Below are positions 39,520 through 58,384 of a stretch of DNA of 64,000 nt, in pieces. Within the stretch, counting starts at the first letter, position 1; every line of letters begins with the position of its first letter. The stretch spans positions 124,001 to 188,000 of the forward strand of contig NZ_KN050789.1 of NCBI RefSeq assembly GCF_000745965.1. The letters run 5' to 3'. The position numbers were made by a program, and so were the translations under genes. Source of the DNA: Edaphobacter aggregans DSM 19364. GTDB taxonomy: Bacteria > Acidobacteriota > Terriglobia > Terriglobales > Acidobacteriaceae. Below the pieces are notes generated by a model that was not told the DNA's origin, searched no databases, and saw only the letters and a program-made list of their open reading frames with translations.

Positions 39520-40080
39520 CTAGACCTCCGGATAGAGCAGCTCGGTAAAGCGCGGATCGTCGGCCATGTCCTGGAAGTCGGAGTCCGAGCGCGCCTGGAT
39601 GCGGTTGCGCGGATTGCGACGGATGGCCTCAGTGAGGTGCTCGAGGCAGGTGTGCGAGTCGCCGGTCATCGACGCCAGCACGGCGAGGCCGTAGAAGGCG
39701 TAGTCGGCGTTCTCGTTCTGCTTGAGGATGAGCTGGAACTGCTCGCGCGCGTCCTCGTAGTGGCCGTCGTTCAGCAGAGAGACGGCGTAGTCGTAGTGCT
39801 CCTCGTGGTTCGAGAAGGTGGCCTTGGCGCGCGAGAGCTGCGCGGTGCAAGCGTTGATGTACATGCGAATGCGGTCGGCGAGATCGCCGGCTCCGGAGGC
39901 GAGCAGCTTCTCGAAGGCCGCGCGGGCCTTGTCGAATTTGCCCTCCTGCATCAGCCGTATGGCGGCTTCGTAGCTTGCGAGAACCTGGGCGCGGGCCGGA
40001 TCGTCTGCTGGGGAGACCGCACCGGCAAGGGTGCGGGGGGGACGCTTGGAAGCAGTTGCGGTCTTTGCTGTCTGTGCCAT
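39520..40080 (-). CDS. TPR-containing protein
   Basis: 186 residues, cytoplasmic (no signal peptide). A low-complexity basic N-terminus (AKTATASKRPPRTLAGAV) is followed by TPR-like helix pairs: ASYEAAIRLMQEGKFDKARA, DYAVSLLNDGHYEDAREQFQ and NADYAFYGLAVLASMTGDSH. The C-terminus has LTEAIRRNPRNRIQARSDSD. Likely a protein-protein adaptor; partner unknown. It is an isolated leftward gene, about 85 bp upstream of the yvcK start. I know no named function for it. Confidence 0.78.
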   Translation of the reverse strand: MAQTAKTATASKRPPRTLAGAVSPADDPARAQVLASYEAAIRLMQEGKFDKARAAFEKLLASGAGDLADRIRMYINACTAQLSRAKATFSNHEEHYDYAVSLLNDGHYEDAREQFQLILKQNENADYAFYGLAVLASMTGDSHTCLEHLTEAIRRNPRNRIQARSDSDFQDMADDPRFTELLYPEV

Positions 40081-44935: not shown

Positions 44936-45034
44936 CGTGCTATTGCATAACAACAGGTGCAACGTCTCTGCTGTGGCCCCTGCGTTGGTGCAGCCGAGGG
45001 TGAGGCCCGGAACGCCGGGACAGGACGAGTGACG

Positions 45035-47560
45035 ATGGAAAAGCGTGGCACGGACAAGATCGACGATCTGGGTATCGCGGAGACGCCGGAAGACGTAGCC
45101 GTCCTCTATTCCTGGGCCAACCTTCACGGAGCGAAGTATCACGACTTCTCGGCATCGCGCCGCGAGTATCGCGCGCAACTGCGGCATCGCGCCGCCGAGC
45201 AGGTTCGCCAGCAGGCTTTGCTGGCACAGGCCGAGGCTGAGGCCGCCGCCGAGGCCGCCGAAGCTACCGCGAAGAAGGCCGCCGAGGCCGCGCTGGCGCA
45301 CAAGGGCAACGGATCGGATTCCACTCAGCAGCAGAGCCTTCGCGAGGCGGAAGAGGCATCGCGCACCGCAGCCGCCGAACGTGTTGAGGCAGCGCGTCGC
45401 GCAGAAGCAGCCGCCGTCGCCGAAGCAGCAGGCCGCCGCGAGGAACGTGAGATCGCCGAAGCACAGGCCTCCGCAGCGCGACAGGCTGCCCGTTACGCTG
45501 AATCGGAGATTCGCCGCCGCGAGATGTCGGTTGGCCGGGGAGGCGCAATGTCACAAGGACACGGCAGACAGTTTTCCGCAGGGATCACAGGCCAGACCTC
45601 GGCCGGGGTTCCCGGCCATATCGAAGACCCCTACACGCCGCAGCCGCATCCGATCGTTTCCGCGGGGGCGCCGCTGGCTCATTCCGGAGCTGTTGCCGGA
45701 GCTGCGACTGCGCAGCCCCAGCCCGCCTTCCGGCAGCCGCAGGGCTTCGCTCCCGCACCGCCGTTCGCGGCAGAGGCGCCGCCGCCGGCCCGTCCCGCCG
45801 CACCGCCACCGCCTACGGCGCAACATGCTCCCGCACAGGTCGTCGAATCGATCTCCGCGCGTGGCGATTCGAGCGGTTCGCAACGTCGTCCGCAGGGCTA
45901 TCACCCGGATGAAGCTTCAGGCGTGCGCCAGATCTATCGGGGACCGGAGTACACCGCTCCTCAACCCGCGCCTCGCATGATGGACTCGATCCGCCAGCCG
46001 CTTCGCGCAGAGGGCCAGCCGCCGAGAGAGAGGCGTGGCGCTCCGGAGCAGTCGCCGCAGAGCGGCCCGGTTGCGCCCGGCAGTGGAGCGGGAAGCGGCT
46101 CAGGCAGCGGAACAGGCTCCAGCGGCGACCGCGCTCCGTTTACCGGAAGCGGCAAGAGACACACCGACCCGCAGGCCCAGCAGCCGCGCCCGGCACGTCC
46201 TCAGGAGCCCGCCGCCACGAGTCCGTTCTGGCAGACCGCGAGCTCGGGCGACCGGCCCGCCGCGAACTTCGATGTCGGATACGTCTCCAGCCGCGAGGCG
46301 ATGCCCGGATCAGGGGCAGCAGGATACACGTCACAGAGATCGGCGGCAGGCGCTCAGCCGCCGTCGAACGCTCCACGGCCAGTCTCGCCCTTCTCGCAGC
46401 CTCCGGCGCCCATGCACTCTGAGGGAACACGCGGCCGCAGGGCCCAGGACGACTTCGGCTATCCCTCGGGGATCAACTACTCCGATGCGTCGCGGCCCGC
46501 GTACTCCGATCTTCCGCGCCGCGTCGGCGTGGCTCCTTCGACGGACTCCGAGCCATCGCGCGCGGCGTACTCCTCCGATCCCGCGGGTCCGGCATGGCTG
46601 TATGCTCCGTCGTCGGCATCGGCCGGGCAATCTGTCCCGATCGCGCAACCTTCGATCACGCCTCCTCCGGCGCAGTCCTCCGTGGCCGAGACGCTGCAGC
46701 ACTCCCGCGAGCGCGTCGCCGCGCGATGGTTTGCGTTGAAGGGTGTCTTCGAGCAGCCGGGTCAGGAGGTCGTCGAGCCCGCGCCGGTTCGGCAGAAAGA
46801 GATTCGCACCCCGGTGCTGGCGGTCTTCTCGCTGGCCGGCGGCGTCGGCAAGACGAGTATGGTGGCCACCATCGGACGCTCGCTCTCCTCGCTCGGCGAA
46901 AAGGTTTTGCTCACCGACACCACCTCGCACGGCCTGCTGCCGTTTTACTTCGGCGCCAGCGAGTTGCGGCAGGGAAACGTGCGCACCTTCTCTCCGCCCA
47001 GTGGAAGCACTGACGCTCCGATCTACCTGGTCAGCTACGAGGTCGATCAGAAGGCCGACCAGCAGGCGCAGGAGAGCCTGGTCGAAGAGATCGTGAACAA
47101 CAGTCGCGGCACGCACCGGATTCTGCTCGACCTCACCGTCGGCTCGTCGTGGATCGTGCGCCAGATGGCGCGCATGAGCCCGACCGTTCTGGTTCCGGTT
47201 GCGCCCGACATGAACTCCGTCATCAGCCTGCAGTCCATCGAAAACTTCTTCCGCGGCATGGTCGATGCCGACGGCCGGCCTCTGCAGCCCTACTACGTGA
47301 TCAACCAGTTTGACGTCTCTCTGCCGCTGCATCTCGATGTGCGCGAGGTTCTCCGGCGGCAGCTGGGCGACAGGCTGCTGCCGTTTGTCATCCATCGCGC
47401 CCCTGAGGTCTCCGAGGCGCTGGCCGAGGGCATGACGGTGGTCGACTATGCACCCGATTCGCCCGTCTCTGGGGACTACATGAACGTCGCGACCTGGCTC
47501 CGTACGATCGCCGCGCCAGCTGCCGCAGGCTTCCGTAACGTGCGCTGGAGCGAACGATGA
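45035..47560 (+). CDS. bcsQ: BcsR-like / BcsQ fusion, cellulose synthesis ATPase with long disordered linker
   Basis: 841 residues from ATG 45035 (GTG at 45029 also in frame). Three parts. (1) About 1-45, DDLGIAETPEDVAVLYSWAN and YHDFSASRREYRAQLR, resembling small BcsR/BcsP-type partners. (2) About 46-590, first an Ala/Glu-rich coiled coil, then a Pro/Ser/Gln/Gly-rich region predicted to be disordered. (3) A MinD/ParA-type ATPase from about 590: LAVFSLAGGVGKTSMVATIG (Walker A), VLLTDTTSHGLLPFYFG, RILLDLTVGSSWIV, and FRGMVDADGRPLQPYYVINQ. BcsQ helps place and activate the cellulose synthase. The signature Lys of ParA/MinD (KGG) is Ala here. Its stop overlaps the BcsAB start by ATGA. Confidence 0.85.
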   Translation: MEKRGTDKIDDLGIAETPEDVAVLYSWANLHGAKYHDFSASRREYRAQLRHRAAEQVRQQALLAQAEAEAAAEAAEATAKKAAEAALAHKGNGSDSTQQQSLREAEEASRTAAAERVEAARRAEAAAVAEAAGRREEREIAEAQASAARQAARYAESEIRRREMSVGRGGAMSQGHGRQFSAGITGQTSAGVPGHIEDPYTPQPHPIVSAGAPLAHSGAVAGAATAQPQPAFRQPQGFAPAPPFAAEAPPPARPAAPPPPTAQHAPAQVVESISARGDSSGSQRRPQGYHPDEASGVRQIYRGPEYTAPQPAPRMMDSIRQPLRAEGQPPRERRGAPEQSPQSGPVAPGSGAGSGSGSGTGSSGDRAPFTGSGKRHTDPQAQQPRPARPQEPAATSPFWQTASSGDRPAANFDVGYVSSREAMPGSGAAGYTSQRSAAGAQPPSNAPRPVSPFSQPPAPMHSEGTRGRRAQDDFGYPSGINYSDASRPAYSDLPRRVGVAPSTDSEPSRAAYSSDPAGPAWLYAPSSASAGQSVPIAQPSITPPPAQSSVAETLQHSRERVAARWFALKGVFEQPGQEVVEPAPVRQKEIRTPVLAVFSLAGGVGKTSMVATIGRSLSSLGEKVLLTDTTSHGLLPFYFGASELRQGNVRTFSPPSGSTDAPIYLVSYEVDQKADQQAQESLVEEIVNNSRGTHRILLDLTVGSSWIVRQMARMSPTVLVPVAPDMNSVISLQSIENFFRGMVDADGRPLQPYYVINQFDVSLPLHLDVREVLRRQLGDRLLPFVIHRAPEVSEALAEGMTVVDYAPDSPVSGDYMNVATWLRTIAAPAAAGFRNVRWSER

Positions 47561-50500
47561 CCGATTCGCCGCTGTGGCGGGAGTTTGAGTCTGGCGATGC
47601 GCTCCTGTTGAAACTGCTCCGCTTCGTCATCTCTGTGGGTGGAATTCTCTTCCTCGGCTTCACCGGGATTCTGGAGCTTACCTGGCCGCAGCAGCTTGTG
47701 CTGGGACTGCTCACCGTGCTGGTCGCCATATGGATTGACCGCAGCTCCAGTTCCTACCTCGTCACGCTGACGCTGATGATCGCGTCGATGTACTCGACCT
47801 TTCGCTACGGCTTCTGGCGCATCTCGACCACAGGCAAGTTCTTCTTTGATCCTGGCTCGAACTGGAGTTGGCTGGACGGTTTCTTCATCTCGATGCTGCT
47901 GCTGGCCGAGGCCTATGCCTTCGTCATCCTCTTCCTCGGCTATCTGCAGACCGTTTGGCCGCTGCGCCGCACTCCGGTGCCGCTGCCCGACGATCCGCAG
48001 CTGTGGCCCTCGGTCGACCTGCTGATCCCCACCTACAACGAGCCGCTCAGCGTCGTGAAGTACACGGCGCTGGCCTCGATGAACATTGACTGGCCCGCCG
48101 ACAAGCTCAACGTCTACATCCTCGACGACGGCAAGCGCGAGGAGTTCCGCCGATTCGCCGAAGAGGCCGGCATCGGCTACATGACGCGCGACGACAACAC
48201 ACACGCGAAGGCCGGCAACATCAACCGCGCGCTCGCCCGGCTGGACTCTCCCTTCGTCGCCATCTTCGACTGCGACCACGTTCCCACGCGAAGCTTCCTG
48301 CAGATGACGATGGGCTGGTTCCAGCGCGACACCAAGCTGTCGATGCTGCAGACGCCGCACCACTTCTACTCGCCCGATCCGTTCGAGCGAAACCTCGGCC
48401 AGTTCCGCACCATCCCCAACGAGGGCGAGCTCTTCTATGGAATCGTGCAGGACGGCAACGACTTCTGGAACGCGACCTTCTTCTGCGGCTCCTGCGCTGT
48501 GCTCAGGCGTACGGCGCTGGACGAGATCGGCGGCATCGCCGTCGAGACCGTCACCGAGGATGCCCACACCTCGCTGCGCATGCAGATGAATGGCTGGAAC
48601 ACGGCCTACATCAACATCCCGCAGGCCGCGGGCCTCGCCACCGAGCGGCTGAGCGGGCACGTCAAGCAGCGCATCCGCTGGGCGCGCGGCATGATCCAGA
48701 TCATGCGCACCGACAACCCGCTCTTCGCCCGGGGACTCCGGCCCGCGCAGCGTCTCTGCTATCTGAACGCGATGACGCACTTCCTCTACGCGCTGCCGCG
48801 GCTCATCTTCCTCACCGCTCCGCTGATCTATCTCGTCCTCGGACAGGTCAACGTTCCGGGCTACTGGGCCGCCATCTTCGCCTACGCCCTGCCTCACCTG
48901 TTCCTGTCGAGCATCACCAACTCGCGCATCCAGGGCAATCACCGCCACTCGTTCTGGAACGAAATTTATGAGACGGTTCTGGCGCCTTACATCCTGCTGC
49001 CCACCATGCTGACGTTTGTCAACCCAAAGTTTGGCAGCTTCAATGTGACGGCCAAGGGCGGAGTCGTCAACCGGCGCTTCTTCGATGGCCGCATCGCGCG
49101 GCCCTTCCTCTTTCTCGTGGGGCTGAACCTGCTCGGCATCCTGATGGCGATCCCGCGCTTCTTTTACTTTCCATTCCCGTACATCAGCGATCTCTACGAC
49201 GGCAACCACGTCGGCACCATCGTGATGAACCTCATCTGGGTTGGCTTCAATACCATCATCCTCGGCGTCTGCGCCGCAATCGCATGGGAGAACCAGCAGC
49301 GCCGCCAGACGGTCCGTGTCGAGATGGCTGTTCCGGTCGATGTGCGCATGCCCAGCGGCAGCATGGTCCACGGTGTCACCACCGATATGTCGAGCGGCGG
49401 CCTGATGATGAAGATGGAGCGCGACTTTACCGTCGCCACCGGCGACTCCATCAAGCTCACTCTTCCGGTTCTCGACGGCAGCGCGACTCTGCCCGCCACC
49501 GTGATCGAGGTGAGCGGAAATATTCTGCGGGCGCAGTTCGATCCCCTCACCATGCAGGAAGAAGAGGCGCTCACGATGGTGCTCTACTCGCGCGCAGACA
49601 CCTGGCTGGGATGGGGAGAGAACCGCGAGCCCGATCAGCCGATGAAGAGCCTCGGACGCATCTTTGAGCTCTCCATACTCGGCCTTACCCAGACGGCGAA
49701 AGAATTGATGAAGACAAATAAGAAGAGTCCCCCGAAGGGCAAGCTGGTCACCAGCATAGCTCCACTCCTTCTGCTGGCGATGCTGTCTTCGCGGACGCTC
49801 TCGGCTCAACTGACGCAGCCCTCCGCCCCGACCGCCCAGGCCAATATGGCCATCCCCTCCGACACAGGCATGCAGGCCAGGCCCGTTGCACCAGGAAACT
49901 TCGACAATCTCTTCTCCCTCGCCGATCTCGGCGTGGCCGACACCATCGTGCTTCGCGGCGTCGACGCCTACCACACGGTCTACTTCTCGCTCCCGCAGAC
50001 GCAGGTGGTGAAGTCGGCGACGATGCACCTGCGCTACCACTTCTCTCCGGGGCTGATTCCCTCGCTGAGCCACCTTAAGGTCAGCCTGAACGGAACCCTC
50101 TTCGCCACCCTCCCGGTCACTGCGGCACCGACGCCTCCCGGCCCGGCCGATCCCAACGCCCCGCGCAGCGAGAACAACTCACTCCTGGAAGCCACCCTAA
50201 CGCTTCCCGCCGAGATGCTGGTCCGCGACAACCAGCTCACCTTCGAGTTCGTCGGCCACTACACCATGGAGTGCGAAGACCCCTCGCACACCACGCTCTG
50301 GAGCCACGTCGACTCGAACTCGACCATCGAACTCGCCGGCAACCTGCTGCCGCTGCGCAACGACCTGAAGCTGCTGCCGCTGCCGTTCTACGACGCCTCG
50401 GTCAACCTGCACCCCGTCATCCCGATCGCCTTCTTCGGCCAGCCGTCGCCCAAGGCGCTTCAGGCCGCGGGCATCATCTCCTCGTCGTTCGGCATGCTCG

Positions 50501-52032
50501 CCGACTTCCGCCAGGTGCGCTTCCCGGTCTCGCTCGGCACCATCCCATCGGGCAACGCCATCGTCATCGCGGAGAACTCATCCGACCTTCCTTCCACCCT
50601 TGGGATCCGAGGCGCATCGGGACCGACCGTCGCCATGCGCGCCAACCCGTCCGATCCCTACTCGAAGGTGCTGGTCCTCACCGGCGACAACTCCGATGAT
50701 CTCCTCACCGCCGCCCTTGGGCTTGCGCTCCAGCGCGACATGCTGGACGGCGACCAGGCGCGCGTCGCCTCGATGAAGATGCCCGCGCCGCGCCAGCCGG
50801 ACGACGCGCCGCGGTGGCTGAGCACCGATCGCAACACCCCAGTCGGCGAGATCGCCCAGACAGGCGACCTGCAGGGAGACGGCTCCGTGCCGCTGCGTAT
50901 CTACATGCGTATCCCACCCGACCTCTACTACGGCCAGTCGCAGAACCTCGGTTTCCATCTCGGCTATCGCTATAACGGAATCCCCATCTCCAACGAGAGC
51001 TCGATGCAGGTCTACATCAACGACGCCTACATCAGCTCCACGCCGCTGCCGCACACCGACAACGCCTCGGCGCAGCTCGATACCATCATTCCCGTGCCGG
51101 TCTCGAACATGCGGCCCTTCTCCAACACCCTCATGTCGCAGTTCATCTTCCTGCTCGCCAAGAAAGGGAAGTGCCAGGACACCGCGCCCTACAACATGAA
51201 GGCGTCGATCATCAAAGACTCTTACCTCGACATCAAGGACATCCCCCACTGGGCGGTCCTGCCGAACCTCGAGATCTTCGCCAACGCCGGCTATCCCTTC
51301 ACCCGCAAGGCCGACCTCTCCGATACCGCCGTCGTGCTTCCGTCGTCGCCCACCGCCGACGAGATCGAGACCTACCTCACCTTCGCCGGCCACTTTGGCA
51401 GCCAGACCGGCTATCCGGTGCTCAACGTCACCGTCACCGACGCCGAGGGAATGAAGTCGAACGCACACAAAGACTACCTCGTCATCGGCACCGTCGACGA
51501 CTCGCCCGCCATCTCGCTCCTCAATCCCTCGCTGCCCGTCATGGTCGACGGCAGCGGCCTCCATATCCAGGACACCCAGGGCTTCTTCGCCTCGTTCCAG
51601 CGCGCATGGTGGAAGGTCCGCAGCTCCGACCGCATCCAGTCAGGCCAGCTCGAGACGGCCGGCGGACTTCCCGACGTGCTCATCGAGGGCATCGAGTGGC
51701 CCAGCCGGTCCAAGCGCTCTGTCGTGCTGGTTGCGCTGCGCGATCACGCCGTCGTCCCGGACTTTCTCTCCGTTTTCCTCAAGACCTCGCAGTCCTCCGA
51801 TATCTCGCAGTCGGTCAGCGTGCTCCACGGCAAACGCTTCGTCTCCTACCGGATCGGCAACGACGTCTACAACGTCGGTTCGCTCAGCCTGTGGACGCAG
51901 CTGAACATCTGGTTCACCCAGTTCCAGTGGATGATGGTCGTCGGCGCCATGTCCGTCTGCTTCCTGATGGCGATCGTGGCCCGGAGCGGACTGCGCCGGC
52001 GCGCTCGCCTGCGCCTGCAGGGGAACGAGTAG
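47557..52032 (+). CDS. bcsAB: Cellulose synthase BcsA-PilZ-BcsB fusion
   Basis: 1491 residues. The first ~717 are BcsA: membrane helices, GT2 domain with VDLLIPTYNEPLS, DDG (190-192), FDCDH (DxD, 237-241), TED (333-335) and QRIRW (371-375), more helices, then a c-di-GMP-binding PilZ domain from about 578 (QRRQTVR and DMSSGG). The BcsB part begins near 718 with a signal-like helix (LVTSIAPLLLLAMLSSRTLS), continues through two carbohydrate-binding/flavodoxin-like repeats (LRYHFSPGLIPSLSHLKVSL; FHLGYRYNGIPISNESSMQV) and ends in a C-terminal membrane anchor (FQWMMVVGAMSVCFLMAIVA). UDP-glucose is polymerised to beta-1,4-glucan and extruded when c-di-GMP binds. AB fusions are also known as AcsAB in Komagataeibacter. 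Confidence 0.96.
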   Translation: MTDSPLWREFESGDALLLKLLRFVISVGGILFLGFTGILELTWPQQLVLGLLTVLVAIWIDRSSSSYLVTLTLMIASMYSTFRYGFWRISTTGKFFFDPGSNWSWLDGFFISMLLLAEAYAFVILFLGYLQTVWPLRRTPVPLPDDPQLWPSVDLLIPTYNEPLSVVKYTALASMNIDWPADKLNVYILDDGKREEFRRFAEEAGIGYMTRDDNTHAKAGNINRALARLDSPFVAIFDCDHVPTRSFLQMTMGWFQRDTKLSMLQTPHHFYSPDPFERNLGQFRTIPNEGELFYGIVQDGNDFWNATFFCGSCAVLRRTALDEIGGIAVETVTEDAHTSLRMQMNGWNTAYINIPQAAGLATERLSGHVKQRIRWARGMIQIMRTDNPLFARGLRPAQRLCYLNAMTHFLYALPRLIFLTAPLIYLVLGQVNVPGYWAAIFAYALPHLFLSSITNSRIQGNHRHSFWNEIYETVLAPYILLPTMLTFVNPKFGSFNVTAKGGVVNRRFFDGRIARPFLFLVGLNLLGILMAIPRFFYFPFPYISDLYDGNHVGTIVMNLIWVGFNTIILGVCAAIAWENQQRRQTVRVEMAVPVDVRMPSGSMVHGVTTDMSSGGLMMKMERDFTVATGDSIKLTLPVLDGSATLPATVIEVSGNILRAQFDPLTMQEEEALTMVLYSRADTWLGWGENREPDQPMKSLGRIFELSILGLTQTAKELMKTNKKSPPKGKLVTSIAPLLLLAMLSSRTLSAQLTQPSAPTAQANMAIPSDTGMQARPVAPGNFDNLFSLADLGVADTIVLRGVDAYHTVYFSLPQTQVVKSATMHLRYHFSPGLIPSLSHLKVSLNGTLFATLPVTAAPTPPGPADPNAPRSENNSLLEATLTLPAEMLVRDNQLTFEFVGHYTMECEDPSHTTLWSHVDSNSTIELAGNLLPLRNDLKLLPLPFYDASVNLHPVIPIAFFGQPSPKALQAAGIISSSFGMLADFRQVRFPVSLGTIPSGNAIVIAENSSDLPSTLGIRGASGPTVAMRANPSDPYSKVLVLTGDNSDDLLTAALGLALQRDMLDGDQARVASMKMPAPRQPDDAPRWLSTDRNTPVGEIAQTGDLQGDGSVPLRIYMRIPPDLYYGQSQNLGFHLGYRYNGIPISNESSMQVYINDAYISSTPLPHTDNASAQLDTIIPVPVSNMRPFSNTLMSQFIFLLAKKGKCQDTAPYNMKASIIKDSYLDIKDIPHWAVLPNLEIFANAGYPFTRKADLSDTAVVLPSSPTADEIETYLTFAGHFGSQTGYPVLNVTVTDAEGMKSNAHKDYLVIGTVDDSPAISLLNPSLPVMVDGSGLHIQDTQGFFASFQRAWWKVRSSDRIQSGQLETAGGLPDVLIEGIEWPSRSKRSVVLVALRDHAVVPDFLSVFLKTSQSSDISQSVSVLHGKRFVSYRIGNDVYNVGSLSLWTQLNIWFTQFQWMMVVGAMSVCFLMAIVARSGLRRRARLRLQGNE

Positions 52033-53241
52033 GTGCAGCAACGCCGCTGGAGACTCATCCCGATGGCGTCAGAGAGGCAAAACCGCTCGCGGAGAGGCCG
52101 TTGGCTTACGACGGCAACTCTTCTGCTCTGCTTTGCGTTCGCCGACCTCTGCCGCGCGCAGCAGCCGTGGCCGCTGTGGGAGAGCTACGCCCTCGCCGTC
52201 CTTGACCCGCAGGGGCGTGTGATTGACCGCAGCGCGCAGGATCGCACCACCAGCGAGGGGCAGTCCTACGCGATGTTCTTCGCCCTCGTCGACAACGATC
52301 GCGCCCGCTTCGACAAGCTCCTCCACTGGACCGAGATCAATCTCGCCAACGGCAATCTCGCCCTGCAGCTCCCCGCATGGAACTGGGGCAAGGCGCCCGA
52401 TGGCAGCTGGCGTGTGCTCGACCCGCACTCAGCCTCCGACGCCGACCTCTGGATGTCCTACTCGTTGCTCGAAGCCGGCCGGCTGTGGCGCGAGCCGCGC
52501 TACGACCGGCTCGGCATGGCCATGGCCGCGCGCATCGCCCAGCAGGAGGCGGCCTTCGTCCCCCGCGTCGGAACCACGCTCCTGCCCGGCGCGACGGGCT
52601 TTCATCCCGACTCCGAGACCTGGGTCCTCAACCCAAGCTATCTCGAGCCCTCAGTGCTGGCCCACCTCGCAAAGATCATGCCCAACGGTCCCTGGGCTGC
52701 AATCCTCGGCTCGCTCGATCCCATCCTCGCCCAGGGCTCTGGCGTGGGCTTCGCAATGGACTGGATCGAGGCCGGAACCACAGTGCGCCCCGCGCTCTCG
52801 CCGGCCCAGCATGCCTCGGGAGACTCCGCAGCCGTTCCGCTCGGCAGCTTCGACGCCATCCGCGTCTATCTCTGGCTCGGCATCGCCGACCCCCAGACCC
52901 CTGGCGTAAAGACGATGCTGCACCGGATCGGCGGTATGGCCGAGTATCTCAAGAGTCATCCGCTGCCGCCCCAGCAGGTCGACCCGCAGGGCAGGGTGCT
53001 CAATCCCAACGCGCCGTCCGGCTTCTCGGCAGCAGTCGTTCCGTATCTCAAGGCGCTCGATATGAAGCACCATGCCAATGCCCAGATGGACCGGCTCGCT
53101 GCCACAAAAGATGCAGCGACAGGACTGTACGGAAAGACCGGCAACTATTACGATCAGAATCTCGCACTCTTTGCTACCGGTTGGATCGAGGGACGCTATC
53201 GCTTCGATCGCGAGGGAAAGCTCCGCGTGAAATGGAAGTAA
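52033..53241 (+). CDS. bcsZ: BcsZ periplasmic endo-beta-1,4-glucanase (GH8)
   Basis: 402 residues from a GTG at 52033, directly after the BcsAB stop, with AGGGG nine bases upstream; ATG 52063 is the alternative. Signal region about 20-42 (LTTATLLLCFAFADLCRAQQ). GH8 marks: DRTTSEGQSYAMFFALVDND with the general-acid Glu, LPAWNWGKAPDGSW, DSETWVLNPSYLEPSVLAHL, and GSFDAIRVYLWLGIAD with the catalytic Asp. BcsZ trims cellulose during secretion and is required for ordered export in many bacteria. It completes the order bcsQ-bcsAB-bcsZ-bcsC. Confidence 0.94.
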   Translation: MQQRRWRLIPMASERQNRSRRGRWLTTATLLLCFAFADLCRAQQPWPLWESYALAVLDPQGRVIDRSAQDRTTSEGQSYAMFFALVDNDRARFDKLLHWTEINLANGNLALQLPAWNWGKAPDGSWRVLDPHSASDADLWMSYSLLEAGRLWREPRYDRLGMAMAARIAQQEAAFVPRVGTTLLPGATGFHPDSETWVLNPSYLEPSVLAHLAKIMPNGPWAAILGSLDPILAQGSGVGFAMDWIEAGTTVRPALSPAQHASGDSAAVPLGSFDAIRVYLWLGIADPQTPGVKTMLHRIGGMAEYLKSHPLPPQQVDPQGRVLNPNAPSGFSAAVVPYLKALDMKHHANAQMDRLAATKDAATGLYGKTGNYYDQNLALFATGWIEGRYRFDREGKLRVKWK

Positions 53242-53388: not shown

Positions 53389-56300
53389 ATGAAGTCTTTT
53401 CGGTCAATTCGGCCGCTGTGGTCTGCGATTCTCCTTGGTGGCGTTCTGGCGCCGATGCCCCTGTTTGTTCACGCGCAGGCGGTAGAGCCTGCCACGCAGG
53501 CGCTGCTCGACAAGGCGCACGCACTTGAGGTGCGCGGCCGGCTCGACATGGCGGCGCAGACCTGGCAGCAGGTTCTGCTGGCCGATCCTAATAACGTCGA
53601 TGCACTCGCCGGCCTCGCGCGCGCGGCAAAGGTTAGCGGTAACAACGCGCTCGCCGGGACCTACATCGACCGTCTCCGCGCCATCAATCCCAACGACCCC
53701 AACATCCAGCGCATCGAGAACATGGGCTCGCAGGCGAACCAGTCGGCGGAGCTGCAGCAGGCCGGCAAGTATGCCCAGGCCGGGCAGTATGCGCAAGCCA
53801 TGGCGATCTATCGCAGGATGTTCGGCGACGCTCCGCCCCCCCGGTGACTGGGCCCTGGCCTACTACGAGACCGAGGCCGCCACGACCGACGGCCGCCCCC
53901 ACGCCATCGCAGGGCTTCGCAGCCTGGTCCAGAAGTACCCGAACGACTCGCGCTATCAGATTGCGCTCGGCCGCATTCTGACCTACTCGCCCGCGACACG
54001 CTCCGAAGGCCGCCGCTTCCTCGACAAGCACCCCAACGATCCTCAGGCTGTCGATGCCCTGCGTCAGTCGCTGCTCTGGGACGCGACCAGTCCCGCCTCC
54101 GCGGCCGACATCCGCGCCTACCTCGCAAAGCACAACGACCCCCAGCTCGCGGAGGCGCTGCGCAAGCAGCCCAAGCCGAGTCCGCAGAAGCCCGGCGCCG
54201 CGCCGCAGACTCCTGAGGAACGCGCTGCCGCCTCCGCAGAGCGCGCCCGCAGCCAGGAGGAGCAGGCCGCCTACAACGCTCTGAACGCCAAGCGGCTCGA
54301 CGAGGCCGAGACGCGCTTCAAGGCGATCCTCGCAAACGACCCGCAGAGTCCGCGCGCTCTGGCCGGCATGGGTTACGTGCGGATGCAGCAGTCGAACTTC
54401 GGCGGGGCCATCAGCTTCCTCGAACAGGCCAAACAGTACGGAGCCCGCGACACCGGCCTCGATAACGCGCTTGAGACTGCGCGCTTCTACTCCACCATGA
54501 GCGAGGGCCAGGTCGCGCTGAACGAGAACGACCTCACTACCGCCGAGCAGAAGTACCAGGCGGCCCTCACGCTCCGCCCCAACAGCCCTGAGGCTCTCGA
54601 AGGTCTCGGCGGAACGCTGCTCAAGGCCCAGCAGTCTGAGGCTGCGGTTCAGGTCTACGATCGCTACACGAAGGCGAAGCCGTCCGCCGCCGCCGCATGG
54701 CGCGGCCTCTTCATCGCGCAGTACAGCGCGGGCAACGCTCCCGGCGCGCTGCTGACCGAGCGCAGGATTCCCCCAGCCGTGCGCTCGCAGCTCATGAAGG
54801 ACCCCGACTTCCTTCGCTCGCTCGCCTCCGCCTATTCGGCCGTGGGCCGCGATGCCGATGCGCAGCGCGTGCTCAAAAGCGCGCTCGACCTTCCGTTCCC
54901 TCCAGGAGCGCGCGGCCTCAAAGAGGAGACACAGTTGCAGTACGCCGCTCTGCTTCAGGCAGCGAACCGCCCCGATCAGGCCGCCGGCCTCTACCGTCAG
55001 GTCATCGCGACCAACATGGCGAACACGCAGGCCTGGCAGGGCCTGGTTCGCGTCGAGCACGCGATGAAGGACGATGCGCAGGCTGTCGGGACCCTCCAGA
55101 GCATGCCGCCCTCCAGTTACCAGCTGGCGATGCGCGACCCCGGCTTCCAGGCCACGGTCGCCTCCATCTATCAGGCGCAGAACCGGCTCGACGTCGCGCA
55201 GGACATCCTCGAAAAATCCGTCTCCGCGCAGATGACGGCGGGGCAGAAGCCCTCGACGGCCATCCTGCTGCAACTTGCCGGCCTCTATCTCTCGCGCAAC
55301 AACGCGCAGGCGGCCTACCCTATCTACCGCAAGATCCTTACTGATGATCCGCAGCGCGCCGATGCGTGGAAGGGCCTGGTCACGATCCTGCACGGCACGG
55401 GCCGCGATCAAGAGGCGCTCGCCCAGGTACAGCAGATTCCTCCCGCCATTCGCCAGCAGCTCGAGCAGGACCCCGAGTACCTGCAGGCGATGGGCGCGGT
55501 CTACAACGCGCTCGGCCAGCCTCAGCAGGCGATGGTCTTCCTGCAGCGCGTGCAGCAGCACTACGCCATGCAGCACGCCGCTCCTCCTGCCGATGTCGAT
55601 ATTCAGGACGCCTGGCTGCTCTATAACGGTGGCAACGACGCCGGGCTTTACCGCCAGCTGATGTTCATCGGAAGCCGTCCCGACCTGAATGACGAGCAGC
55701 GCCGCGCTGTGCAGACCATCTGGGCCAACTGGGCCGTACGGCGCGCCAACCAGACGGCCGCCACCGGCAACATCAAGCGCTCGCTCGCTATCCTCAACGC
55801 CGCCGCCAAGGCCTTCCCGGATAACCCCGGCGTGCTTCGGGCCCTGGCCTCGGGTTATGCGCGCGCCGGCCAGCCCAAGCAGGCCATCCTTATCTTTCAG
55901 TCGCAGGACATGACCTCGGCCACGGCCTCCGACTATAAGTCCGCCGTCGGCGCCGCACTTGCCGCCAACGACACCAAGGACGCCGAGATCTGGCTCCGCT
56001 ACGGCCTCGACCAGTATTCCCGCGACGCCGAGATACTCTCGCTCGCCGCAAAGTTTGAGCAGGCTCGCGGCAACAGCGGCCGCGCCGCCGACTACTTTAA
56101 AGCCTCTCTCGCCGCTCTTCCTCCCGGAGACCCAGGAGCCGAACTCGCCAGCGAGTTGAGCCAGCCCGCCCCGACCAATCGGCTGCCCAGCTCCGCCCAC
56201 GCGCAGGACCTCGCCCGCCTCCTCGGCACAGCCGACGCCGACGAGAACGGGCAGCAGGCTCCCTCGAAGCCCTACCTTCCCAGTTATGTGAACGCGTACG

Positions 56301-58384
56301 GTCAGGCTCCGGTCGAAGTGCAGGGCGGCCCCTATGGGCCCACCTCGAGCGTCGTACCCGCCTACATGGCCAATCCAGGCGCGCGCCGTTCGTACTCTAC
56401 CACCGGAACGCTGCGCGACTATGTTCCTGAGGTATCCAGCCCGACGGCTCCCGCCGCCGCACCCGCCCTGGAGCTTGCCGACGCGACACCCGCAGCAGCA
56501 CCGCTCTCCTCCGAGGAGTATCCGCGCCAGGCGATCGCCCGGCTGACCACTAAGGCGCAGTCGCAGCCTTTGATCTCCGCCGTCCCGCAGGAGACTTACG
56601 GCCCCTACGTGCCGTACGCCCCTCCCGCGCAGAACTCAGCCCAGACGGCCTCTGTTGCGCCGCAGAATCCCGGCTGGGGCTATACACCGTCCCCGGTTCC
56701 GGTGCAGCTCGGCGACAGCACACCGCACATCGATCCTCCGCAGAAGGAGGTCACCGACGTTCTTCCCACCGCGCGCTACATGCCCACCGCGCGCATCGGC
56801 TCGCAACGCTCCACCCGTCCGATGACGGGGGAGAGCAACCCTCCGCCGGATGACTACGGCACGCTGACCACCCATAATGCGCAGTACAACCCGCAGAGCC
56901 AGTTGCAGCCCACCGCCGACAGTTACGCCCAGCAGTATCCGCAGCCCGGCCTTGGGACACGCTCCACGACGACGCACCGCGCCGCAGCCCCCCGGCCGAC
57001 GACCCCGCCCCTGAGCTACCCCAACGTCAGGCAGCCGCTCGGCGACTCCGGCTACCCCACGCTGGTCCCGCAGACGCAGGGCAATCCTCCCAGCGACGCC
57101 GACCTGATGGCCAAGAGCCTTCCTCCGCTGCGCGGCTCTTACGATCCAAGCGCCATCGTTCCCCGCGGCCCAATGTCGCAGCGCGAGACGACCGAGCTGG
57201 AGATCGCTGCCATCGAGGCCTCGTACAGCGGCTGGGTCGGCGGAACCGGCTACGGCCGCTACCGCAGCGGCACCGCCGGCTTCGATCGCCTCACCGATCT
57301 CGAGGCTCCCTTTGAGGCCTCCGCCGTCCTTGGGAAATCCATTCGCCTTACCGTCGTTCCGCGCGCCGTCTTCCTCAACTCCGGCACCATCGACACCACC
57401 AGCTTCCAGAATCAGAACGGCGGCGTCATCCCCGTCCTCGGCACGCTTCCGGCCAATGCGCTCGTGGCTCCGCAGCAGCAGTTCTCCTCCGGTGTCGGCG
57501 GCGAGATTCAGCTCACCAGCGCCAATATCGGCCTCGCCGTCGGCTACACGCCCTACGCCTTCCTGGTCTCCAACGTCACCGCCCACGCGCAGTGGCGTCC
57601 TCTCGGCGGGCACTTCACCTTCTTCGGCGACCGCGACTCCGTCAAAGACACGCAGCTCTCCTACGCCGGCCTGCGCAACCCCGGCAGCATCACTCCTGTC
57701 TTCTCCGGCAACATCTGGGGCGGCGTGATCTCCACCGGCGGCGGCGTCCGAGTCGAGAACGGCAACGAGCGCGCCGGCATGTACGTCACCGGCGGCGGCT
57801 ATGCCCTTACCGGCTACCACGTCCTCGACAACCGCCGCTACGACGGCACCATGGGAGCGTACTTCCGCGTGCACCGTTGGCCCGGATACGGCAGCCTGAA
57901 CATGGGCGTCAACTTCTTCGGCATGCACTACGATCACAACGAGCGTGGCATGACCTACGGGCAGGGCGGATACTTCAGCCCCAACATCTACTTCCTCGCC
58001 TCGGTGCCGCTCACCTACAACGGCTATTACGGCAAGAACTTCAACTACGTCATTAACGGCGCTGTGGGACTCCAGAGCTTCCAGGAAGAGAGCGCGTCGT
58101 ACTATCCTCTCGACCGCCCGCTCCAGACCGGATCCAGCAACGCCTTCTACCCGCAGAACAGCAATACCGGCCTGAACTACTCCACTGAGTCGGAGGGCAG
58201 CTACCGTGTCGCCGACCACTGGTACGTAGGCGGCTTCCTCACCGCGAACAACACCCGCAACTACAACATGGTCTCGGGCGGCTTCTTCGTGCGCTACCTG
58301 TTCAAATCACAGGTCCCGACCGAGAGCGGCTTCAAGGGCATCTTCCCCACCAACACCGGCTTCCGCCCGCTACGCGTCCCGTAG
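53389..58384 (+). pseudogene. bcsC: BcsC cellulose export protein, frameshifted in a poly-C tract as given
   Basis: Start ATG 53389: signal peptide about 1-30 (LLGGVLAPMPLFVHAQA), then TPR helices up to FGDAPPP, where the frame hits a stop at 53845. From the same point the +1 frame continues without interruption, GDWALAYYETEAATTDGRPH, to the stop at 58384. Removing one C from the run at 53836-53842 would give a continuous 1664-residue BcsC. Parts: TPRs about 30-930, a Pro/Tyr/Gln-rich linker about 935-1250, and the C-terminal BCSC_C outer-membrane barrel (SSYSGWVGG-like ELEIAAIEASYSGWVGG, then GYGRYRSGTAGFDRL). BcsC exports cellulose through the outer membrane. Sequencing error, true inactivation or phase variation are all possible. 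Confidence 0.88.
53836..53842 (+). repeat. C7 homopolymer causing the bcsC frameshift
   Basis: Seven consecutive C within CTCCG-C7-GGTGAC. With six C the reading frame is open across the junction (A-P-P-P-G-D-W); with seven it stops at the TGA three bases after the run. Confidence 0.9.

Follow-up and report, generated by a model that had tools for sequence, protein, structure and literature searches.

Described losses of cellulose export and homopolymer switching

Small lesions in bacterial cellulose synthesis (bcs) genes are known from Komagataeibacter, where 1-bp and other small changes in bcsC and bcsB have been reported (PMC7347698, PMC13068021). In one of these studies cellulose production is described as disappearing and returning via small bcsB and bcsC indels (PMC7347698); in the other, bcsC lesions rose in agitated cultures, and the relevant passages make no claim of a return to cellulose (PMC13068021). 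Closer to the organism considered here, the bcsC of Acidisarcina polymorpha SBC82 is described as lying in two fragments (ACPOL_3663/3664), and that species is reported to make cellulose, its aggregates being broken up by cellulase; the bcsC of Acidobacterium capsulatum (ACP_0077) is annotated as a pseudogene (PMC9693552). For switching by homopolymers, the poly-G/C tracts of Campylobacter are the comparison used here: they are scored from a cut-off of 7, and runs of 9 and 10 dominate (PMC6321876). No publication joining the bcs operon, phase variation and a homopolymer was found in the one literature collection searched.

The bcs locus of Edaphobacter aggregans

The window analysed here is a 64,000-nt stretch of contig 5 in the draft genome of Edaphobacter aggregans DSM 19364 (8.18 Mb in 345 contigs). 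It carries a bcs operon on the + strand, in the order bcsQ-like gene, fused bcsAB, bcsZ, bcsC. This order, together with the tetratricopeptide repeats (TPRs) and BCSC_C domain of the last gene, matches the Acidobacteriales BcsC type (PF05420, fused bcsAB); unlike that type, the reading frame of bcsC is split here at a run of seven C:

44957..47560, + strand: bcsQ-like ATPase gene with a long N-terminal extension, open frame (PF06564 over cut-off)
47557..52032, + strand: bcsAB, fused cellulose synthase A and B, open frame (TIGR03030 over cut-off; PF03170; PilZ)
52033..53241, + strand: bcsZ, GH8 endoglucanase, open frame (NF008305 over cut-off)
53389..53847, + strand: bcsC upstream piece, 152 codons with a start resembling a signal peptide and the first TPRs; stops at TGA 53845-53847 (ORFs and profile matches; signal peptide by eye)
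53836..53842, + strand: C7 run with the frame change in bcsC (7 bases here, 6 in all 37 distinct relatives' junctions)
53843..58384, + strand: bcsC downstream piece in the +1 frame, 1513 codons; holds TPRs and the BCSC_C barrel, signal peptide not seen (ORFs and profile matches)

The upstream frame begins at ATG 53389 and reads through the run as CCG-CCC-CCC-CGG-TGA, so that the stop follows the seven C and a single CGG codon; the +1 frame stays open between 53525 and 58384, and no second stop or frameshift is found in the 1513 codons of the downstream piece. Homology confines the frame change to the seven C themselves, the upstream alignment stopping at 53835 and the downstream one starting at 53843. 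Scored separately, the pieces show TPRs upstream (PF14559, over its cut-off) and then the BCSC_C barrel downstream (PF05420, 307.5 bits, over its cut-off). Against the NCBIfam BcsC model NF008520 they match successive parts, positions 15-143 (43.9 bits) and 147-705 (160.6 bits); neither comes near the model's cut-off (858) when scored apart, a figure to be read with no intact relative scored alongside. The position in an operon with bcsA, bcsB and bcsZ is also that of a bcsC; what sets this one apart is that it does not occupy a single continuous frame. The bcsQ-like product scores 153.7 bits against TIGR03371, slightly below the cut-off of 157.85. The initial annotation had proposed that the C7 splits bcsC by one base, with the remainder in the next frame, and this is confirmed by the ORFs, the profile matches and the alignments.

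A search of the genome returned one BCSC_C domain and one close (full) BcsAB match, so that no backup is evident. A close second copy of bcsC or bcsAB was looked for and not found in this search: the two further BcsAB matches are weak, at 26% and 22% identity.

The junction in related genomes

The two bcsC pieces were aligned separately to the bcsC loci of relatives, giving 82 loci with any match. Both alignments reached the junction in 75 of these, and the remaining 7 were excluded; since many loci represent the same genome twice, the 75 reduce to 38 distinct junctions, from 37 relatives and this genome. Exactly six bases separate the two parts in every one of the 37 relatives' junctions, and seven in this genome only. 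In the relatives the six are in frame and encode Pro-Pro or Pro followed by another residue. Together with the preceding Pro they give Pro-Pro-Pro in 22 of 37, Pro-Pro-Ala in 12, and Pro-Pro-Gln, Pro-Pro-Val and Pro-Pro-Asp in one each. A C-rich run at this place is thus a by-product of a protein motif.

A C/G run of at least 6 occurs at the junction in 2 of the 37 relatives. One of these two, G022 (L188, G022:C88), carries an in-frame C8 at the corresponding Pro-Pro-Pro position, and of the 22 Pro-Pro-Pro junctions it alone has a run of 8; about 2.7 such runs would be expected from a CCC usage of 0.348, a value that is this genome's and not the relatives' own. The same broken tract with further decay, which would have marked a plain pseudogene shared with relatives, was not found, the aligned relatives being in frame at the tract.

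Age of the break

Amino-acid changes unique to this genome were compared with those unique to G010, the closest relative for which the whole operon was available, using three different outgroups. For the downstream bcsC piece the counts (this genome vs. G010) were 107 vs. 114, 105 vs. 110 and 86 vs. 116; for the upstream piece, bcsAB and bcsZ, no significant excess here over G010 was seen with the three outgroups. Neither extra stops, nor frameshifts, nor faster amino-acid change, as expected of an old pseudogene, were found in bcsC. Because neither piece has evolved faster than in G010, any break is recent; the lesion is either recent, or absent from the organism, or rescued.

Of these, we favour a recent loss of function by slippage as the best reading of the sequence, and consider it slightly better than an even bet. 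The conserved Pro-Pro-Pro between the early TPRs, written in C-rich codons, would have given rise to a C run, which may have grown recently by one base; replication slippage would be the ordinary mechanism. A ribosome would then meet the stop after the run and one CGG, yielding a 152-residue fragment with a signal peptide and without the barrel, while the rest of BcsC would be left without a signal peptide. With one bcsC found in the genome, normal cellulose export should fail in this strain.

Possible rescue by the ribosome

Leaky or programmed +1 frameshifting on CCC-CCC-C could give some full-length BcsC. The shift would have to be +1, and CCC-C favours that direction; the stop comes one codon after the run; and the codons downstream show no relaxed constraint. 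Where +1 shifting of up to 1% is described in E. coli, it is at the second codon (PMC4519876), and there the comparison turns against the idea, since no other position is as prone to shifting as the second codon, and non-programmed shifting is typically put below 0.003% (PMC4519876). Nor does the site have the usual attributes of a programmed one: the slippery sequence is not conserved across the 37 relatives' junctions, and CGG, at 11.5 per 1000 codons, is not a rare codon in this genome. A stimulating RNA fold was sought at the run and rejected, the predicted fold being weaker than those of shuffled sequences (z +2.1). The lack of a fold and of conservation makes leakiness the most that is likely, and we regard rescue of this kind as very unlikely.

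Possible phase variation

As an alternative to a simple loss, the run length might change often, toggling cellulose export within the population, as the initial annotation had suggested. The gene makes this worth considering: bcsC serves a surface polymer, and a G/C run within a surface-related gene is what is described for the phase-variable genes of Campylobacter, for which seven is the lowest cut-off used (PMC6321876). In Komagataeibacter, moreover, cellulose has been described as lost and regained via bcs frameshifts, on one occasion within a C-rich part of bcsB (PMC7347698). The strongest individual point in favour of a switch is the C8 of G022, of different length at the same site and in frame.

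At seven, however, the run is at the lower end of the known range, the switching reported in Campylobacter being for runs of at least 8 (PMC6321876), and it is not kept: a C/G run of at least 6 in 2 of 37 relatives' junctions, and one 8-run where about 2.7 would be expected from this genome's CCC usage, argue against a maintained tract. Nor does the examined part of the genome hold a set of such runs. In 848 kb of the 8.18 Mb, counts of C/G runs drop steeply from length 5 to length 10, at 938, 128, 13, 4, 1 and 1, with no tail of long G/C runs in that portion, as against the Campylobacter peak at 9-10 (PMC6321876). The window holds two C7/G7 runs against a mean of 11.1 in shuffles, fewer than by chance; the second is a G7 (+ strand) at 40035-40041. 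A run of this length is in itself nothing out of the ordinary. Missing mismatch repair was considered and rejected: the frames holding the MutS_V matches are open over 911 and 881 codons and that holding the MutL_C match over 717, these being the only domains searched. One 7-run that is not conserved, in a genome with open frames that contain MutS and MutL domains, is thus unlike the Campylobacter situation, in which runs of 9-10 dominate (PMC6321876). Since the bcs breaks of other genomes also lie at other sites, the proposal of slipped-strand phase variation finds no support here, and we give an evolved switch at this C7 very little credence.

Possible sequencing or assembly error

The main rival to a recent loss is that the consensus carries one C too many, the organism's own bcsC being intact. 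A homopolymer is a likely site for such an error, and a one-base break with no other decay, in a gene that all 37 distinct relatives' junctions show in frame at this point, is what it would produce. The assembly is a draft in 345 contigs, its contamination is 7.21%, and 445 N fall within the 848 kb examined; it also contains further frame breaks.

How unusual those breaks are was gauged against G024. With thresholds set at 40% for identity and 80% for coverage, 96 of 437 G024 query genes passed; two of these 96 are frame-broken here: bcsC and a porin-like gene (C2 near 164436; judged by eye, with no family search). The reverse test, with 106 of 979 query genes passing, found one break in G024, which is in bcsAB. 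With some 2% of testable genes broken and bcsC one of several, a single such break is unremarkable, and the rate is compatible with ordinary pseudogenes as well as with a modest level of error.

The first frame-break finder was too insensitive, picking up 7 of 60 breaks planted at coding and non-coding sites combined; a Viterbi codon model, one setting of which missed bcsC and was then altered, found 59 of 100 planted in coding sites. It made 75 calls in 1.648 Mb, or 45.5/Mb, against 41.5/Mb in the control G024, so that most calls are noise in both; about half of the 12 inspected looked false. The similar rates do suggest that this assembly is not grossly worse than that of G024.

A general difficulty with homopolymers is also not evident. 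In 89 distinct genes (118.2 kb, bcsC excluded) that align to a G024 gene over at least 80% of the latter's length, 22 C/G runs of at least 6 lie within an alignment that stays in one frame. The 848 kb contain 19 C/G runs of at least 7, of which 9 besides that of bcsC are, by our own reading, in ORFs with a clearly positive coding score; and among the 75 frame-change calls bcsC alone has a C/G run of at least 7. Such runs are therefore not generally misassembled, and some breaks in this assembly lie away from long runs. Gross homopolymer error throughout the assembly, although other frame-broken genes are present, was not seen in the part examined. An erroneous base in bcsC, as the initial annotation had suggested, is, we think, a serious candidate but on the doubtful side.

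Several other genes of this assembly seem to be interrupted. The porin-like gene with the likely frame break corresponds to L065 near 4436 (C2). On the same locus, a GH130 gene (L065:15955-17072, C2) that the codon model picked out is split between two frames, its halves hitting consecutive sections of the same models in Pfam and in NCBIfam. Likely frame-broken, partly by eye, are genes for a papain-family protease (L052:19722-20000 and L053:17-529, C1), a nucleoside permease (L066:18513-19605, C2) and a receptor-like outer-membrane protein (L101:6852-7848, C1). A dprA (L059:9611-10625, C2) seems to be without its middle: its C-terminal piece begins at position 84 of TIGR00732, and the preceding piece matches no family. 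For the papain-family gene, the permease gene and dprA the break was judged by eye, with one half only matching a family.

bcs lesions in related genomes

Of 24 relatives' loci examined, 18 have a whole bcsC; a contig end truncates it in 3, an unknown stretch interrupts it in 1, and in 2 it is broken. Lesions occur in G024, G019 and G022, which belong to the same genus. In G024, bcsA is frame-broken by one base (G024:C3 near 149501), with a stop at once, and bcsZ (L161-L162) has a frame break near its 3' end; G019 (L187, G019:C3) has in-frame stops in both bcsA and bcsC. The bcsC of G022, in frame at its C8, occupies a frame of 540 codons whose matches to the downstream piece end at residue 269, with no N in the stretch. 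An apparent frame break in the bcsC of L045 was rejected, there being a masked or unknown stretch at that place.

Over the family, BCSC_C is present in 127 of 398 genomes, and 26 of 62 genomes of the genus, some of them incomplete, give no strong hit with a bcsC segment of 300 residues. Two family genomes, G148 (G148:C1:3922823-3927170) and G139 (G139:C10:8523-12745), carry the TPR part and the barrel of bcsC on one contig in different frames; in both, the N-terminal part is out of frame with all or part of the barrel, and the break is well downstream of the C7 site. Some other drafts also have short bcsC frames, which could reflect contig ends. G148, which may be Acidisarcina polymorpha, has its break between the TPRs and the barrel, unlike the one at the C7. 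G123, assembled as one contig and conceivably Acidobacterium capsulatum, has an open bcsC frame of 1807 codons; if the identification is right, this would speak against the annotation of that species' bcsC as a pseudogene.

E. aggregans thus resembles A. polymorpha and A. capsulatum in being a related bacterium with a broken, or annotated as broken, bcsC in its bcs locus (PMC9693552). It also resembles the spontaneous cellulose-negative bcsB and bcsC mutants of Komagataeibacter, whose small bcs indels stop cellulose and in some cases revert; those, however, are strains with a phenotype, while the lesion here is known from one consensus sequence (PMC7347698, PMC13068021).

Implications for cellulose export

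In these genomes bcs breaks recur in relatives at places other than the C7, and the differing sites speak for repeated loss and not for one conserved switch. Within a recent loss by slippage, the bcsC break would be one case of repeated independent bcs loss in the family, with no dedicated switch involved. Several points count against it: other frame breaks in the assembly would also be expected from a noisy one; the absence of decay fits a sequencing error equally well; and several of the relatives with lesions are drafts too.

More speculatively, export in the Acidobacteriaceae might be repeatedly lost and regained by small indels in bcsC, in this genome at a Pro-Pro-Pro C run that both slips in the DNA and shifts ribosomes by +1, leaving cells with seven C a trickle of full-length BcsC. 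We consider this a long shot; if true, it might also help to explain cellulose production by Acidisarcina despite its split bcsC.

The case cautions that single homopolymer breaks in draft genomes should not be called phase switches. If the break is real, it would be a fresh loss of cellulose export, seen before decay. The lack of a strong bcsC match in 26 of the 62 genomes of the genus makes the trait look dispensable, and cellulose export looks, from these genomes, to be easily lost in these soil bacteria.
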